DNA of 64,000 nt from Archangium gephyra (lineage in GTDB: Bacteria > Myxococcota > Myxococcia > Myxococcales > Myxococcaceae). The stretch lies in assembly GCF_001027285.1 (NCBI RefSeq), contig NZ_CP011509.1:4596501-4660500 (forward strand). Direction: 5' to 3'. Of the stretch, positions 4,308 to 33,919 are shown piece by piece. The position numbers and the translations under genes were made by a program. The notes beneath the pieces are model-generated. The model saw nothing but the letters and a program-made list of their open reading frames with translations. It was not told the DNA's origin and searched no databases. Every line of letters starts with the position of its first letter. Positions within the stretch are counted from its first letter, which is position 1.

Positions 4308-5193
4308 TTCCGCGTGAGTTTTCATCCCTCAGCCACAGCATCAACTCGCCATGGCCCTGGGTCCGCGGTGCGTCCACCTCTACGATGACCGAACCTTCGC
4401 TGTTGGGCTCAATGGGATTCTCTTGCCGAAGTTTCATCCTCCCTACCTCATGGCCCTGGGCGTCCACTAGCGAGCCAACAGCTGCTGTCCAGGGCTCAGG
4501 GCTCGAGTTCTTCAACCACAACTCCGCTGCGATGCTCTTGTCCGAGCGATAGCCGTAGCCCCACTCATAGGCCAGTACCCCCTCCGAGCGGACAAGTTCC
4601 TTCTTCTTGAGTTCTTGGCGCTGAATACCCTTTTCGCTGAGCGTCTTGTTGGCGATCAATCCGAGGAGTCCGCTCGCCTGCTCGAGTCTGACCCGTAGCT
4701 GCGCGAGCTGGGCTCGTGTTTGATCGAGTTCGTCGAGCAGTTGCTGGTTCTTCGCCTGCCCCTGAGCTATTTCGAGCTGCAGGGCCTCCCGAGGACGTTT
4801 GTCTCGGTACACCTCCACCTGGTGTGTTGATCGCCCCGGGTCGCCGACCAGGGAGAAGGTGACACGCTGTTGGGTTGAGCCCTCCCCCAGGGTTGCTGTC
4901 AGCCGGAGGCGCTCGCCCTTCACCAGATCTGGTGGTGGTAGGAGGCTCAGAGTGCTGCGCCCTCGTGTCATCTCCTGGAAGCGTACCTCGTCTTGCAACT
5001 CCACTTTCACGGGCGAGTCAAAGACGAAGTTCGTCATGAGTCCTGGGCTGACGCAGATTTCCGGGGCCTCTGCCAGAGGTACCAACGCAAGCTCGATGCG
5101 CTGCAACTGCTTGCACACCGCGTCGGGGGGCGGCTGGATGAGCGGTGCGCCTTGATGAAGCACGAGAAGCAGGATGCAGGAAGGGGGGAGCAC
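4279..5193 (-). CDS. DUF2381 family protein (Myxococcus paralogous family)
   Basis: About 304 residues. I take GTG 5193 as the start: it gives a signal-peptide-like N-terminus (LPPSCILLLVLHQG), has GGAGAAGG upstream at good spacing, and lies 23 bp after the kinase stop. The body has an N-terminal beta-rich half (SPGLMTNFVFDSPVKVELQ), a central helix or coiled coil around QLLDELDQTRAQLAQLRVRLEQ and a C-terminal beta domain (ELWLKNSSPEPWTAAVGSL). This is the layout of the DUF2381/TIGR02268 family, which I know only from myxobacteria, often next to a Ser/Thr kinase as here. It is probably exported. Its function is unknown. Confidence 0.75.
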   Translation of the reverse strand: MLPPSCILLLVLHQGAPLIQPPPDAVCKQLQRIELALVPLAEAPEICVSPGLMTNFVFDSPVKVELQDEVRFQEMTRGRSTLSLLPPPDLVKGERLRLTATLGEGSTQQRVTFSLVGDPGRSTHQVEVYRDKRPREALQLEIAQGQAKNQQLLDELDQTRAQLAQLRVRLEQASGLLGLIANKTLSEKGIQRQELKKKELVRSEGVLAYEWGYGYRSDKSIAAELWLKNSSPEPWTAAVGSLVDAQGHEVGRMKLRQENPIEPNSEGSVIVEVDAPRTQGHGELMLWLRDENSRGITVRGLTFP

Positions 5194-27312: not shown

Positions 27313-29565
27313 GTGGGTTCATTCATCCGAGGGGCCGTGCTAGCCGCTCCCGCCTTGCGCCTCCGCACCCGGCTCGCCCGGCGCCGCCGCTATCCGCTCC
27401 GCCGTCAGGTCGAGGAGTCGGACTGTGGCCCGGCCTGTCTGGAGATGATCTCCGCCTTCCACGGCTCGGAGCACGCCCAGGCCCTGCTGCGCGAGCTCAC
27501 GTACGTGCGCGCCCCGGGCGCCACCCTGTTGGACATCGCCCGGGCGGCGGAGCAGCTCGGCTTCCGGGCCCGGGGGGTCCACGTGGAGGACGCGGCCGAC
27601 CTCGAGGACGAGGAGGGTCAGGCCCTGCTGCCCGCCATCGCCCACTGGGAGGGCAACCACTTCGTCGTCCTGTATGAGGTGAATGCGCGCAACGCCGTGG
27701 TGGGAGACCCCGCCGTGGGCTTGCGGCGCATCCCTCGTGCCGAGCTGGCCTCGCATTGGAACGGCATCCTCCTACTGCTCGAGCCCACCGAGGCCCTCTT
27801 CCAGCCCCGGGCCGTGTCCGACGCGCCCGTGCGCCGTCCCACCGCGCTGCGCCGCTTCGCCCACGGGATGCTGCGCTACCGCGCGCTGCTGGCGCAGATC
27901 GTCCTCGCCACGCTCCTGCTGCAAGGGCTGGCGCTGGCGCAGCCGTTGCTCGTCCAGGGTCTGGTGGACAAGGCCGTGGGCGGACGCGACGTGCCGCTGC
28001 TCACCGCCATCGGCGTGGGCCTGGGCGTCCTGCTGGCCGCTCAGGTGGCCGTCACCGCCGTCCGGGGCGCCGCCCTGTTCCTGCTCTCCGGCAGCTACTC
28101 GATGCTGCTGCTCACCCGCTTCTGGAAGCGGCTGCTGTCACTGCCCCTGTCCTTCTTCGCCCGGCGCCACCGGGGTGATCTGCTCAAGCGCATCGAGGAC
28201 CACCAGCGCATCCGCCGCATCCTCCAGGGCGCCGCCTCCTCCGTGCTGCTCGACCTCGTCATGTTGGTGGGCTACTCCGGGGTGCTCCTGCTCTACGACA
28301 CCACCGTCTTCGCCCTCTTCCTCGGCGGGGCCGTCCTCTACGCGGCCTGGACGCTGATGCTGCTGCCTCGCCGCGGCCGTCTGGACGCCGAGCGCTTCCG
28401 CGTGGGGGCCGAGGCCAGCCGCCTGGAGCTGCAGATGCTCGGCGGCATCCAGACCCTCAAGGCCGCCAGCGCCGAGCAGCAGCTGCGTGCCTCCTGGGAG
28501 CGGCTCCAGGCCCGCGACTTCGCCGCCTGCCGCCGCCTCTGGTTGCTCGACACCCTCCACCAGGGCGGCACCCTCTTCATCAACCAGGCCATGTACCTGG
28601 GCATCCTCCTCTACGAGGCCTGGCTCGTGCTCGAGGGGCGTCTGTCTATCGGCCAGCTCGTCGCCACCCTCGCCATCCTCGCCCTGGTGCTCAACCCCCT
28701 GCAGAACCTCGTCACCTTCGTGCACGAGCTGCAGGACGTGGCCCTCTCCCTGCGCCGCGTGGAGGTCGTCTACGAGGCCGAGCCGGAGCCGCTCGACACG
28801 CCAGCAGCCCAGGCTCCGGGGCTCGCGCATGCCCCGGAGATCCGGCTCGAGCACGTCACCTTCCGCTATGGCTCTCCCCATGAGCCTCCCATCCTCGACG
28901 ACGTGAGCTTCACCCTGCCCGCGGGGAAGATGACCGCCATCGTCGGCCGCTCCGGCGCGGGCAAGACCACGCTCGCCCACCTGCTGCACGGCCTCTACCG
29001 TCCCCAGCAGGGCCGCATCCTCTACGACGGCCTCCCCTTGGAGTCGCTGCCTCCCACGCGCCTGCGCCGCTCGGTGGCCTACGTCTTCCAGAAGACGGAC
29101 ATCTTCGATGGCACGCTCGCGGAGAACATCTCCCTCGGGGACGAGCGGCCCGACCCGGAGCGGTTGATGCATGCCGCTCGCACCGCGTGCCTGGATGACC
29201 TGCTCGCGCTGCCTCGGGGGTTGGACACCCGCATCGGCGAGTCCGGCATCCGTCTCTCCGGTGGCGAGGAGCAGCGCCTGCAGCTCGCGCGCGCCATCTA
29301 TCGCGACCCCCGTGTGCTCTTCCTCGACGAGGCGACCAGCCACCTGGATGCCACCACCGAGCGCGCCATCACCGAGTCGCTCCAGCGGGAGGTGGCCGGC
29401 CGCACCGTGGTGGTGGTGGCGCACCGGCTCTCCACCATCCGCCGCGCGGACCTCATCGTCGTGCTGGAGCGCGGACGCGTGGTGGAGCAGGGCACTCACG
29501 ACGAACTGCTGGCCCGAGAGGGCGGACGCTACCGCGCGCTCGTGGAGAATCAGATGGAGGGTTGA
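27313..29565 (+). CDS. Peptidase C39-containing ABC transporter (RiPP leader cleavage and export)
   Basis: About 750 residues from GTG 27313 (start uncertain; GTG 27337 is an alternative). N-terminal C39 protease: Cys38 in EESDCGPACLEM, His116 in WEGNHFVVLYEV and Asp132 in VVGDPAVG, a complete triad. A membrane domain of about six helices spans roughly 190-480. The ATPase has GRSGAGKTT (about 545), LSGGEEQRLQLAR (about 648) and LFLDEATSHLD (about 670). Such PCATs cut leaders after double glycine and export the core. The nearby precursor has exactly that site, so it is the likely cargo. A small membrane protein gene follows after three bases. Confidence 0.93.
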   Translation: MGSFIRGAVLAAPALRLRTRLARRRRYPLRRQVEESDCGPACLEMISAFHGSEHAQALLRELTYVRAPGATLLDIARAAEQLGFRARGVHVEDAADLEDEEGQALLPAIAHWEGNHFVVLYEVNARNAVVGDPAVGLRRIPRAELASHWNGILLLLEPTEALFQPRAVSDAPVRRPTALRRFAHGMLRYRALLAQIVLATLLLQGLALAQPLLVQGLVDKAVGGRDVPLLTAIGVGLGVLLAAQVAVTAVRGAALFLLSGSYSMLLLTRFWKRLLSLPLSFFARRHRGDLLKRIEDHQRIRRILQGAASSVLLDLVMLVGYSGVLLLYDTTVFALFLGGAVLYAAWTLMLLPRRGRLDAERFRVGAEASRLELQMLGGIQTLKAASAEQQLRASWERLQARDFAACRRLWLLDTLHQGGTLFINQAMYLGILLYEAWLVLEGRLSIGQLVATLAILALVLNPLQNLVTFVHELQDVALSLRRVEVVYEAEPEPLDTPAAQAPGLAHAPEIRLEHVTFRYGSPHEPPILDDVSFTLPAGKMTAIVGRSGAGKTTLAHLLHGLYRPQQGRILYDGLPLESLPPTRLRRSVAYVFQKTDIFDGTLAENISLGDERPDPERLMHAARTACLDDLLALPRGLDTRIGESGIRLSGGEEQRLQLARAIYRDPRVLFLDEATSHLDATTERAITESLQREVAGRTVVVVAHRLSTIRRADLIVVLERGRVVEQGTHDELLAREGGRYRALVENQMEG

Positions 29566-29568
29566 AGG

Positions 29569-29739
29569 GTGCATCCACGTGAGGAGGACGAAGACGACCC
29601 GACACTCACCGAGGAGCTGCGCACCGTCATGCGTCCACGCTCCGGGCGGCTCCTCGTGCTGCTGGTGTTGATGGCACTGGTGCTGGGCGCGCTGGTGCTC
29701 GTGGCCTCACGCACGGTGCTCGCCGGCTTGTGGCGATGA
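29569..29739 (+). CDS. Small single-helix membrane protein
   Basis: 56 residues from GTG 29569, three bases after the stop of the exporter. An acidic N-terminus (HPREEDEDDPTLTEELRTV) is followed by basic MRPRSGR and one hydrophobic helix LLVLLVLMALVLGALVLVAS. No family is recognised. Its spacing indicates co-transcription and perhaps translational coupling with the exporter, so it may be an accessory subunit or a remnant of an HlyD-like adaptor, of which only the anchor would be left. The coding call rests on spacing and the clean topology. Confidence 0.5.
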   Translation: MHPREEDEDDPTLTEELRTVMRPRSGRLLVLLVLMALVLGALVLVASRTVLAGLWR

Positions 29740-29806: not shown

Positions 29807-29968
29807 TCAGCAGGCCAGGCAGCCAGGGGGCTCTTCGCCACACGCGTAGGTGGTGATGTCCGGGCACTTCTTGTCCTGCACGGGCCCGGCGCCACCCTCG
29901 ATGCGAGCGAGGTCCTGCACGAAGAGTTCCTTGATCTTCTTGACCTTCTTTTCCTTCTTCGGCTCCAT
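29807..29968 (-). CDS. Graspetide-like RiPP precursor peptide (double-glycine leader, TTxxxxEE core)
   Basis: 53 residues from ATG 29968, with GGAGAG six bases upstream. The lysine-rich leader contains KELFVQDLARIEGG; the LFVQDL (15-20) resembles the LFIEDL leader motif recognised by the plesiocin ligase PsnB, and Gly25-Gly26 is a C39 cleavage site. The 27-residue core has TTYACGEE (39-46), which fits the TTxxxxEE macrocyclisation motif of group-2 graspetides, here only once. It also has four cysteines (35, 43, 50, 53). Expected modification: ester bonds from Thr39/Thr40 to Glu45/Glu46 by the ATP-grasp enzyme, plus one or two disulfides. The product and its activity are unknown. Confidence 0.85.
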   Translation of the reverse strand: MEPKKEKKVKKIKELFVQDLARIEGGAGPVQDKKCPDITTYACGEEPPGCLAC

Positions 29969-30144: not shown

Positions 30145-31101
30145 TCAGGGAATGGAAGTGCGCGCGGCTCGCACGAGGGCCCGCGCCAGATGCCCGAGGA
30201 GGTCCGTGCCCGCGCGCGCGTCGAAGCCGAGGAACATGGGCGAGGCGTTGAGCTCGAGGAAGCGCAGCGTGCCCCGTGCATCCCGCTTGAGGTCCATCCC
30301 CGTCCAGCGCAGCCCCACCACCTCCGTGGCCCGGAGGCACTGACGCGCCACCTCGGGCGGTAGCTCGAAGGACTCGATGCGCTCCTCGTTCTGCCGGAAG
30401 TCGAGCGCACGCGAGATGATGCGCAGGCTGGCGATGATCTCCCCGTCGAGCACGTAGACGCGCACGTCCTCGCCGGGCATCAACTCCTGGAAGGTGACGG
30501 GGGCGGCCTCCAGGGCCTCCAGCCGTGCGTCGGTGAGATCCTCGGGCCCCAGCTCCAGCGTGGCCGCGCCGCCCTCGACGGGCTTGTAGGCCACGCGCCG
30601 GCCCGCGGCGAACCGGCGCACCGCCTCCGGATCATTCGTCCAGAGTGTCTCGGGCACCGGCAGCCCCGCGTCCGCCAGGAGCGCGAGCTGTACCGGCTTG
30701 GGCGTGCGCCAGTCCGAGGTGAGCGGGTTGTAGAGCGGCACGCCCATGGCCTCCCAGCGCCCCACCAGCCCGCGCAGCAGCGTGGTCTTCTCCCGGAAGG
30801 CCACGAGCGTGGTGCGCCAGTCGTCATCCATCGCCTCCTGTGCGTCCACGCCGAAGGTGAGCGGATGGGCGTGGTAGCTGCGCAGGTAGATGGCTCCGGG
30901 CCGCTCGAGACGCCGTCCCTCCAGGGTGATGCCGTCGAGGCCTTCCGTCAGGGACAGGCGCGTCTCCTGCGGGAAGGTGAGGGTGTCCACCATGAGGGCC
31001 TCGGCTCCCTCCTGCTCGACCCGGCGCGCCAGCTCCGACACGTGCGTGTCGTCGCGGGAGCCCACGAAGAGCACGGGCCGGGCGGGTGAGCGGGTCGTCA
31101 T
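30145..31101 (-). CDS. ATP-grasp ligase (RimK/MvdD/PsnB-like), graspetide macrocyclase
   Basis: 318 residues from ATG 31101, which overlaps the TGA of the VKOR-fusion gene (ATGA). ATP-grasp landmarks: VAYKPVEGGAATLELG with the nucleotide-binding Lys, FQELMPGEDVRVYVLDGEII, and the Mg-binding end GMDLKRDARGTLRFLELNASPMF, with Asp, Glu and Asn in place. The N-terminal part (LFVGSRDDTHVSELARRVE) is the pre-ATP-grasp domain seen in MvdD-type RiPP enzymes. The family joins side-chain carboxylates to hydroxyl or amine groups. The precursor gene lies 177 bp downstream on the same strand. Substrate assignment is by context and motif. Confidence 0.88.
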   Translation of the reverse strand: MTTRSPARPVLFVGSRDDTHVSELARRVEQEGAEALMVDTLTFPQETRLSLTEGLDGITLEGRRLERPGAIYLRSYHAHPLTFGVDAQEAMDDDWRTTLVAFREKTTLLRGLVGRWEAMGVPLYNPLTSDWRTPKPVQLALLADAGLPVPETLWTNDPEAVRRFAAGRRVAYKPVEGGAATLELGPEDLTDARLEALEAAPVTFQELMPGEDVRVYVLDGEIIASLRIISRALDFRQNEERIESFELPPEVARQCLRATEVVGLRWTGMDLKRDARGTLRFLELNASPMFLGFDARAGTDLLGHLARALVRAARTSIP

Positions 31102-32870
31102 GGTGCGTGTGCTCCTTCGGGGTGGGGTTCGACGGAGGAGATCCGGGGCGTGAGGGGGTCGAGCAGGGCTGGCCGGTCGAGCCACTCGGCGACATGGGCC
31201 AGCGGTGCCTCGCAGCGGCGGCCATCGAGGAAGAGGGTGGGCAGGCCCCGGGCATGACGCTGCTTGAGCGCGGCGGCCGCGTGTACCCGGGCCCGGGCAC
31301 GCTCTCGTACGGCCATGAGTGTTCCGGCCTCCTGTCCCGCATCCGCCGCCACGAGGGCCAGGGGCTCCCCGGCGTTCCGCAGGCGCGTGTAGTCCCGTTT
31401 GGCCGCGCGGAAGAGCTGGAGGAAGAGCTCGCCTCCCCAGGCCACTCCGGCCGCCGCGAGCGCCTCGCATGCCGCCTGGTCCTTCGGGTCATCCGGGTCC
31501 ATGGGCGCGAGCGCTACGTACGCGCGCACCTGCGCTCCGTGCCGTGCCAACAGCGTCTCGAGCTCCTCGAGGACGGGGCCGCAGTGGCCGCAAGCGGGGT
31601 GCGCCAGGACGATGAGCACGTGCGGTGCGTCCGCCTCTCCCAGCCGGGGTCCGAGGGCCTCTCCGTCGAGGGCCAGCCGTGGCTCCTGGGAGAGCTGCGC
31701 GAGCGTCGCCAGTGGGGAGCGCAGCAGGCGCGTGTGCTCCCGGAGGAGGGACTCGTTCTCGCTGCCGCGGGAGAGCAGGGGCACCGAGGAGGACAGCACC
31801 AGCCCGAACAGGAGCACCAGCAGCAGCGCGGCGGGAAGCAGGCCCGGCGGCGGCGTGGGCCCCCGCGGCAGGACTCCGAGGAGGAAGACGGCCGCGCCGC
31901 CGAGGTCCACCGCATGCACCATCATGCAGAGCGTGCAGAAGCGCCGCATCCGCACCTGCGCCACGACCAGGAGCAGGGACAGGGGCAGGGTGGGGAGGAA
32001 GGCCGCGCCCGTGAGCCACGTCTGCACCGGGCCGCCGCCGAGCGGAGCGGTGCACAGCACCAGCAACTGGGCTCCGAAGAAGGCGGTACCCAGTCCGGCC
32101 AGTGGCACTCCGGCGGGACTCGCCCAGGCGGAGAGCAGCACGCTCTCGCAGTCCAGCGCTCCGCCGCCTCCACACAGGCGCGAGGCCTTGCCGTCTCGTG
32201 TCCACGAGAGCGCCGTCAGTGCCGCCGCGAGTCCCACTCCAGAGAGCAGCGCCAGCAGTGCGGTGGGCAGCCGGAGGCCGGGGGGTTGGGCGAGCACTGC
32301 CCCTACGAGCAGCACGCCTACCAGCGCCGCCAGGAATCCGCGCATCCAGGGCGAGGCGGACGGGCCGGCGAGGGCCGTCTTCAGCTTCCAGTCCCGGAGG
32401 AGCAGTTCTCGTACGCGGTGACGGAGATAGCCCGGCTCGGGCTCGCCCTCGCCGCCGTACTCCAGGAAGACCACGACTCCCGACCAGAGGGCCGAGAGCG
32501 TGTCCCGATCCATCTCCCGGCTGCCCCGCCGGCTGTCCCAGATGCGGAAGGTGCCCGGCGTGTCCTCCGTCGGCGGAGTGACCGCTTCGAGCAGGCCGAA
32601 GCCTCCCTGGGGCCCGGACTGGAAGTGGAGGATGGCGGGTAGCTCGTCCGCCTCCAGGGTGTCGAGGGTCTCCAGGTCTCCCTGGCCCGCGGTGACGTCC
32701 AGCCCCAACGCGGGAGCCTCCTGCGCCAGGGCCAGCAGGGTGCCTGGTTGCGCGTGGCGTGCGAGGACCTCGCGCACGTGGGTTCGCGAGTAGCGCAGGC
32801 CCAGGCGCCGGGCCACCTCGGCGAGGACCTCCGCCGGGTCATCGCTGGGGACGTCGGGATCTCGAAGCAT
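31098..32870 (-). CDS. C39-like / VKOR / thioredoxin-like fusion protein, putative disulfide-forming enzyme
   Basis: 590 residues from ATG 32870. The N-terminal about 140 residues resemble a C39 peptidase fold, but the position of the catalytic Cys is occupied otherwise, so it is probably non-proteolytic. A VKOR membrane domain follows (about 178-365, five helices) with the loop pair Cys233/Cys241 (LDCESV) and active-site FCTLC (312/315). The soluble C-terminus has a thioredoxin-like CGHC (427-430) in HPACGHCGPVLEEL. VKOR-Trx fusions act as DsbB/DsbA-like disulfide generators. Its stop overlaps the start of the ATP-grasp gene. The degenerate C39 domain may bind the leader; that is inference. 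Confidence 0.85.
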   Translation of the reverse strand: MLRDPDVPSDDPAEVLAEVARRLGLRYSRTHVREVLARHAQPGTLLALAQEAPALGLDVTAGQGDLETLDTLEADELPAILHFQSGPQGGFGLLEAVTPPTEDTPGTFRIWDSRRGSREMDRDTLSALWSGVVVFLEYGGEGEPEPGYLRHRVRELLLRDWKLKTALAGPSASPWMRGFLAALVGVLLVGAVLAQPPGLRLPTALLALLSGVGLAAALTALSWTRDGKASRLCGGGGALDCESVLLSAWASPAGVPLAGLGTAFFGAQLLVLCTAPLGGGPVQTWLTGAAFLPTLPLSLLLVVAQVRMRRFCTLCMMVHAVDLGGAAVFLLGVLPRGPTPPPGLLPAALLLVLLFGLVLSSSVPLLSRGSENESLLREHTRLLRSPLATLAQLSQEPRLALDGEALGPRLGEADAPHVLIVLAHPACGHCGPVLEELETLLARHGAQVRAYVALAPMDPDDPKDQAACEALAAAGVAWGGELFLQLFRAAKRDYTRLRNAGEPLALVAADAGQEAGTLMAVRERARARVHAAAALKQRHARGLPTLFLDGRRCEAPLAHVAEWLDRPALLDPLTPRISSVEPHPEGAHAP

Positions 32871-33013: not shown

Positions 33014-33919
33014 TCACGAATCTTTTCTCGTGGAGGTGGGGTCCGGCACGCACACCCAGGGTTGGCTTGGATGGTTGCGGCCACAGCGGAAACCCGGTCC
33101 ACAGGCCGAGGTGTTTTCGGGGTCACACGACTTGCGGCATTGGAAGAGGAAGCAGGCCGTTTCCTCCGGGCAGGGTGGCCTGCTCGTGCCACAACCCTGC
33201 AGACATTCCATCCAAATATGACCCGGAGTGCGCGGATTGGCATTGAGTGTGCAGTGCTGGCCCTGCGGGCAGGGGGTTTGCTCGCAATCTTGTCCATGAA
33301 TCGTCATGCAGACAGACCCCTGTCCTGCCATCAACCCGATACAGCGCTGGCCCGCCGGACAGGGTCGGTCTTCACAGGTAGGCATGCAGTAGGAGCCTTC
33401 TTTGTCGGAATGGCAATAGTACCCCTCCGGGCAACTGGCGGACTCGTCCACACGGCACGGGCGACCGCAGAATCCATGGCAGAAGAGGCCCTTCGCACAG
33501 CCGTCCTTTGGGCTTTCAGGCAGGGATTGGCAGAGTTCACCCTCCGTGCGCACGCCGGTGAGCGAGCAGATGCCGATCATGTCCTTGTCATTTTCAGCGG
33601 ACCAGGGGATGCAGGCGAAGCCTTGTGGGCAATGTTCATCCCCCGTGCACAAGCTGTCCGTGCAGTGGTAGCGGCTTGTCGGCACGTCGTAGGCGCAGCG
33701 GAGTGGATGATCGCAGTCCGCGTCGGTGCGGCAGTCATGCGCATAGGTGGGCAGGCGCAGGCGCTCCTCAAGTGAAAGCATGGGGACGAGCGTCCTACCC
33801 GGGGGCAGCGTCATCCGCTCACTGGACCCATGCCCGGACATGGCGATGGAGATCAACCAGACAAGGGGCAGAGGCATGAGGAGAACGAGCAAAGTGGACA
33901 CTGCTTTGCGCCATTTCAT
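33014..33919 (-). CDS. Cysteine-rich exported protein
   Basis: 301 residues. An N-terminal hydrophobic segment (TLLVLLMPLPLVWLISIAM) acts as signal or anchor. The remainder has about 36 cysteines in EGF/Dickkopf-like small modules: CRTDADCDHPLRCAY, CTGDEHCPQGFAC, CPEGYYCHSDKEGSYC, CPAGQRC and CGPGFRC. Such proteins fold outside the cytoplasm with many disulfides, and their function in myxobacteria is unknown. Composition is somewhat less GC-rich than the neighbours. It lies 12 bp after a small lipoprotein gene, in the same operon, and 143 bp from the VKOR-fusion gene start on the same strand. Confidence 0.7.
   Translation of the reverse strand: MKWRKAVSTLLVLLMPLPLVWLISIAMSGHGSSERMTLPPGRTLVPMLSLEERLRLPTYAHDCRTDADCDHPLRCAYDVPTSRYHCTDSLCTGDEHCPQGFACIPWSAENDKDMIGICSLTGVRTEGELCQSLPESPKDGCAKGLFCHGFCGRPCRVDESASCPEGYYCHSDKEGSYCMPTCEDRPCPAGQRCIGLMAGQGSVCMTIHGQDCEQTPCPQGQHCTLNANPRTPGHIWMECLQGCGTSRPPCPEETACFLFQCRKSCDPENTSACGPGFRCGRNHPSQPWVCVPDPTSTRKDS

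Follow-up and report, generated by a model that had tools for sequence, protein, structure and literature searches.

The window analysed here, a 64,000-nucleotide stretch of an Archangium gephyra chromosome, contains a small open reading frame (ORF) in which a single TTxxxxEE ring motif is combined with four cysteines. This raises the question of whether the encoded peptide is cross-linked by both ester bonds and disulfides and, if so, by which enzymes. The precursor, its parts and the adjoining synthetase are as follows:

29807-29968, minus strand: precursor gene, 53 aa, with a single TTYACGEE and four cysteines (from translation and the alignment of relatives)
29891-29968, minus strand: leader, residues 1-26, with LFVQDL common to relatives and GG at 25-26 as the expected C39 cut (from alignment)
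29831-29854, minus strand: TTYACGEE, residues 39-46, with predicted donors T39/T40, predicted acceptors E45/E46 and Cys43 inside
29810-29866, minus strand: cysteine-bearing stretch, with Cys35 (29864-29866), Cys43 (29840-29842), Cys50 (29819-29821) and Cys53 (29810-29812)
30145-31101, minus strand: PsnB-like ATP-grasp graspetide synthetase, 318 aa, 322 bits to 7DRM

Minus-strand translation of 29807-29968 yields MEPKKEKKVKKIKELFVQDLARIEGG/AGPVQDKKCPDITTYACGEEPPGCLAC* (leader/core; full 53-aa product, MEPKKEKKVKKIKELFVQDLARIEGGAGPVQDKKCPDITTYACGEEPPGCLAC), with a core of 27 residues following the GG leader and cysteines spaced as CX7CX6CX2C; translation of the plus strand of this interval gave no comparable peptide. 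The initial annotation was correct in its placement of T39, T40, C35, C43, E45, E46, C50 and C53, and in reporting TTxxxxEE only once in the precursor. Within the 64-kb window, TT....EE was identified in one of 157 short ATG ORFs, namely the precursor. GGAGAG lies upstream of its ATG, the gene is located ~180 bases downstream of the ATP-grasp gene on the same strand, and its cysteine codons differ among orthologues only synonymously (TGC/TGT). On sequence evidence, the 53-aa ORF is a real gene. Searches of the precursor against the PDB returned no meaningful match, and no promoter or terminator matches were found around it. A match of the leader to the NCBIfam model bact_IIb_cerein (0.056) was below cut-off and was rejected as mirroring only the shape of a GG leader.

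Synthetase and relationship to plesiocin

The precursor is adjoined by a graspetide-clade ATP-grasp synthetase, of which residues 13-315 match 7DRM (322 bits, E=1.9e-95). The database entry for 7DRM says only ATP-grasp protein; we take it to be PsnB, the plesiocin synthetase, and 7DRM-7DRP to be structures of the plesiocin system PsnA2/PsnB. Matches were also obtained to NCBIfam TIGR04187 and TIGR04184, both below cut-off. Consistent with group 2 graspetides, the core carries TTxxxxEE, present once as TTYACGEE, and the leader motif LF(V/I)xDL or a near variant, the putative recognition site of the synthetase, was detected in nearly all relatives found. The motif is not repeated as it is in plesiocin, repetition being a plesiocin trait rather than a requirement of group 2. 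By synthetase, motif and leader, the peptide groups with plesiocin-type graspetides, with predicted ester rings, and the earlier assignment of a plesiocin-type precursor was supported by the adjoining PsnB-like enzyme and by the invariance of Thr40, Glu45 and Glu46 in aligned relatives.

Conservation of the ring motif and cysteines

Among 195 Myxococcota genomes, 27 loci with synthetases of at least 66% identity were identified, and the leader and TTxxxxEE were kept beside synthetases of 89-66% identity. Since the precursors beside most of these loci carry one TTxxxxEE each, a single motif is normal in the clade; the initial impression that it is unusual did not hold, nearly all close relatives' precursors having one. 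An alignment, proposed previously as a check on whether the Thr, Glu and Cys positions are invariant, gave a divided answer. Thr40, Glu45 and Glu46 are invariant in all aligned relatives, Thr39 is replaced once by Ser, and the leader motif LF(V/I)QDL (or LF(V/I)xDL and near variants) is common to them, but the four cysteines are not all invariant. Cysteines in precursors are limited to one genus-level (Archangium-type) group, many relatives being Cys-free. Within the Cys-bearing subgroup Cys43, which occupies the third x of the ring motif, does not vary; Cys-free relatives served by the same enzyme family have Leu or Val in its place, while Cys35 and Cys53 are confined to three direct orthologues.

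These three orthologues, from the window and from genomes G003 and G005, occupy one chromosomal site beside hpt and share Cys35, Cys43, Cys50 and Cys53. Between the window and G003, 11 of the 27 core residues are changed, with the four cysteines, TT and EE all kept (p about 0.006). The precursors of G002 and of a second G005 locus (G005b), TTLACCEEANDGCC, also possess four cysteines, placed differently (CC..CC), and a second G003 precursor located beside an orphan exporter, STLACGEEPGGCDPL, retains the equivalents of Cys43 and Cys50 only. Only even numbers of cysteines were observed among Cys-type precursors. Because the two-Cys G003 paralogue keeps just these equivalents, Cys43 and Cys50 are likely the core pair, which lends sequence-based support to the earlier proposal that a cysteine within the ring may tie it to the tail.

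A scan of genome contigs with the synthetase alignment identified seven loci, all from Myxococcus or Pyxidicoccus, and no new Cys type, and a plasmid search recovered two haloarchaeal synthetases (32-36% identity) and no C39-like/VKOR/DsbA fusion of the type described below. In Myxococcus/Pyxidicoccus loci L062-L071, the C39 motif of the exporter is intact, even though no GG site is present in the neighbouring precursors.

The exporter and the C39-like/VKOR/DsbA fusion

The remaining genes of the locus comprise an exporter module and a multidomain membrane protein:

27313-29565, plus strand: PCAT, a C39 peptidase (DCGPAC intact) with ABC exporter, convergent with the operon
29569-29739, plus strand: 56-aa protein with one TM segment, its position after PCAT-family genes conserved in Archangium-type and Myxococcus/Pyxidicoccus loci
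31098-32870, minus strand: C39-like/VKOR/DsbA-like membrane fusion, 590 aa, first gene of the operon, its stop overlapping the synthetase start (ATGA, 31098-31101)
32451-32843, minus strand: C39-like domain of the fusion, catalytic-Cys position and His-bearing stretch not conserved, a presumed leader binder
31869-32264, minus strand: VKOR domain of the fusion, with invariant loop Cys233/Cys241 and CxxC at 312/315
31176-31628, minus strand: DsbA-like thioredoxin domain of the fusion, CGHC, with C427/C430 invariant

The exporter and its 56-aa partner (27313-29739) behave as a module, which G003 lacks at this position, hpt and the precursor being separated there by ~58 remaining bases; the G003 exporter sits at another site (L093) with its own precursor. 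Upstream of the operon, a 301-aa Cys-rich protein is encoded at 33014-33919 on the minus strand; it was ruled out as a cassette member, being absent from both syntenic relatives. Rearrangement was also observed between loci L031 and L032, in which a ~270-base segment between exporter and synthetase (4556-4827 and 4708-4981, respectively) is inverted, the loci being otherwise 93% identical. The ends of this segment form an inverted repeat, CCCTCTCCCTCTGGGAGAGGG, suggestive of a possible mobile or invertible element. In both loci, at about 9.1-11.2 kb, an MvdC/MvdD-like ATP-grasp gene pair adjoins the Cys-type graspetide locus, and a similar pair occurs elsewhere in the window's genome (G000:C1:3634825-3636789).

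On the minus strand the operon runs from the fusion through the ATP-grasp gene to the precursor. Pfam assigned the fusion to Peptidase_C39, VKOR (PF07884, 1.8e-14) and Thioredoxin_4. The loop cysteine pair C233/C241 and the CxxC C312/C315 expected of a VKOR are invariant, and all redox cysteines (233/241, 312/315, 427/430) are conserved without exception in five fusion homologues of 49-74% identity. The C-terminal part is predicted to adopt a thioredoxin fold with a CxxC, its model matching DsbA structures in Foldseek at E about 1e-4, and the C39 part of the AlphaFold model matched PCAT peptidase domains, including 6MPZ, which was solved with a leader peptide. PCAT retains DCGPAC...GNHF, whereas in the fusion the catalytic Cys is replaced (SDDP) and the His-bearing stretch is not conserved; its C39-like domain may therefore serve to bind a leader, probably the GG leader, and is not expected to cleave it. 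Similar C39-VKOR proteins are annotated in Bacteroidota, and in the part of the open literature searched no published description of a C39/VKOR fusion in RiPP clusters was found. The initial annotation had proposed disulfides in the product without mentioning this protein; its linkage to the operon argues, at the level of sequence, in favour of that proposal. An unusual large VKOR-domain membrane protein (ORF of 651 aa or more; L104, L105 and L127) also occurs in G003 and G004 and is unrelated to the RiPP fusion.

Exactly five copies of the fusion were found in the 195 Myxococcota genomes, and all have an ATP-grasp RiPP enzyme and a Cys-bearing precursor as neighbours. In four cases the neighbour is a Cys-type graspetide precursor; the fifth copy, that of G134, adjoins a grasp-with-spasm pair. 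The fusion is present in 4/5 Cys-type synthetase loci and in none of the 22 others, which have other precursors or none identified (Fisher p=0.0004 for 4/5 v 0/20, kinship ignored), and this co-occurrence rests on few lineages. G003 is the exception, having four- and two-Cys precursors yet no such fusion in its genome; at the shared site the exporter is missing as well. Given that G003 keeps its Cys precursors, either the fusion can be dispensed with or decay is under way in G003. In a synthetase tree of 23 of the 30 sequences, a Cys-free group (G015, G019, G033, G125 and G126) is nested in the clade holding all Cys types (support 98/91), and two changes in the Cys label are needed: two gains, or a gain plus a loss. 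This nested group also lacks GG, exporter and fusion; nesting and shared absences fit a joint loss of all four features.

Because the AlphaFold model is unreliable across the membrane part (mean pLDDT 54.8), the topology of the fusion was judged solely from charge counts. Counting as the redox side the loops with redox cysteines and the segments next to the C39-like and DsbA-like domains, we found 10-19 Lys plus Arg on this side versus 1-2 on the other in 5/5 fusions. The bias is reversed in five ordinary VKORs from related genomes, with 2-4 in redox-side loops versus 5-8 opposite (controls were restricted to rows in which VKOR motifs could be recognised, and two of these, L109 and L120, gave no usable helix set). 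Under the positive-inside rule, this charge pattern suggests that the redox sites of the fusion would lie on the cytosolic side, on which the peptide still carries its GG leader. A precedent for a VKOR whose activity can lie on the cytosolic side is known from Aeropyrum pernix, whose enzyme acts in two compartments (Hibender 2017, as cited in PMC12453122), although this protein is archaeal and has no RiPP link. We tentatively raise the possibility of a leader-guided, cytosol-facing disulfide machine, in which the dead C39 domain would grip the GG leader at the inner membrane face while the core is oxidised by an inverted VKOR and the DsbA-like domain, ahead of cleavage by the exporter. If so, the product would be a ring-tied hybrid of ester and disulfide cross-links.

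Proposed pathway, alternatives and related systems

From the genes, conservation, domain content, co-occurrence and pattern of loss described above, we infer a pathway whose chemistry, pairing, order, compartment and activity would be as follows. The PsnB-like enzyme would read the LFVQDL leader and, by homology, join T39/T40 to E45/E46 as two nested omega-esters. Cys43 would pair with Cys50 in the PPGC tail, tying the ring to the tail, and Cys35 would then pair with Cys53. These disulfides would be made by the operon's fusion, with electrons passing from the peptide thiols to the DsbA-like domain, the VKOR and a quinone; with the GG leader probably gripped by the inactive C39 domain, oxidation would precede cleavage and export. 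PCAT would cut after GG26 and export the 27 residues that follow as the product, which, like plesiocin, may inhibit proteases. We assign a probability of roughly 68% to this reading, in which a dedicated disulfide step is part of a single-domain plesiocin-type (group 2) graspetide cluster. The product would be a bicyclic omega-ester graspetide, with a disulfide from its own, perhaps leader-guided, oxidase fastening the ring to the tail. Weighing against it, Cys35 and Cys53 are not conserved beyond the three orthologues, and the cysteines of G002 and G005b are placed differently.

The alternative that survives best, although we consider it rather unlikely, is an ordinary plesiocin-type graspetide with cysteines oxidised after export by general periplasmic Dsb enzymes or air, the fusion serving another substrate or being redundant. 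G003, with Cys precursors and no fusion, could be so explained, and other VKOR genes exist elsewhere in the genomes of the window and of G003; however, the fusion overlaps the synthetase gene by ATGA, stands beside Cys-type ATP-grasp clusters in 5/5 cases, and possesses a C39-like domain, a type that binds GG leaders. It is considerably less probable that Cys43 takes no part in a disulfide and acts as a ring nucleophile, the ATP-grasp enzyme making a thioester or swapping donors to give rings unlike those of plesiocin. Graspetide synthetases can form thioesters once donors are replaced (PMC13097080; PMC12291112), but every Cys-type precursor retains T40 and a Thr or Ser at position 39, the Cys43 position is Leu or Val in Cys-free relatives with the same enzyme family, and a thioester would make the VKOR/DsbA fusion needless. 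Very improbable, too, is that the cysteines coordinate a metal or join two peptides into a dimer, with no internal disulfides: CX7CX6CX2C could hold a metal and even Cys numbers also permit dimers, yet the operon encodes a thiol oxidase and no metal transporter, and the Cys spacing varies between subgroups, which a metal site tolerates poorly. Finally, a decayed or chance reading frame with no working precursor, suggested by the shortness of the ORF and by the ability of such loci to shed parts, as in G003, is largely refuted by orthologues in three species at one site, synonymous Cys-codon changes, and conservation of leader, start and flanking enzyme.

Returning to the graspetide with a dedicated disulfide step, its parts resemble several known systems. 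Plesiocin, which is tetravalent with two esters per repeat (PMC12291112), shares a close synthetase homologue (322 bits), TTxxxxEE and a nearby peptidase-exporter, NHLM-type transporters often accompanying group 2 graspetides (PMC13097080); it has four motifs, whereas the window precursor has one motif, four cysteines and an operon-linked VKOR/DsbA fusion. Gra-5 is likewise of group 2 with fewer donor/acceptor sets than plesiocin, but the accessible part of the refactoring study (PMC9576775) describes one dehydration and reports no disulfide machinery. Fuscimiditide and other stem-loop graspetides share two nested esters and a short core but belong to another synthetase group, with a PIMT partner rather than a VKOR; cysteine is treated there as a nuisance, with no designed cross-link, ThfA C76 having been mutated by its authors to avoid disulfides (PMC13003496). 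The G134 grasp-with-spasm system (L080, 5056-9421) encodes its own 49%-identical C39-like/VKOR/DsbA fusion beside an ATP-grasp gene and a GG precursor with two cysteines near the core ends, but has another ATP-grasp family with a SPASM partner and an unrelated core; the same type of disulfide enzyme is thus found in a different RiPP class. The Synechococcus VKOR-thioredoxin fusion (4NV2; match E=0.0085) joins VKOR and thioredoxin in one chain but lacks a C39-like domain, and to our knowledge is not in a RiPP operon.

A peptide that appears to be cross-linked by two ester rings and, probably, by one or two disulfides from its own membrane oxidase is a combination of which no published description was found in the part of the open literature searched. 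Secondary modifications of graspetides listed in 2026 comprise microviridin acetylation, methyl-ester/aspartimide formation and aminomalonate, with disulfides not among them (PMC13097080), and this short list would be extended by disulfide formation through a dedicated membrane oxidase. If the proposal is true, the locus would supply nature's own way of making peptides in which ester and disulfide cross-links are orthogonal. It would also allow the recruitment of a disulfide enzyme by a RiPP leader to be tested, possibly at the cytosolic face of the membrane.
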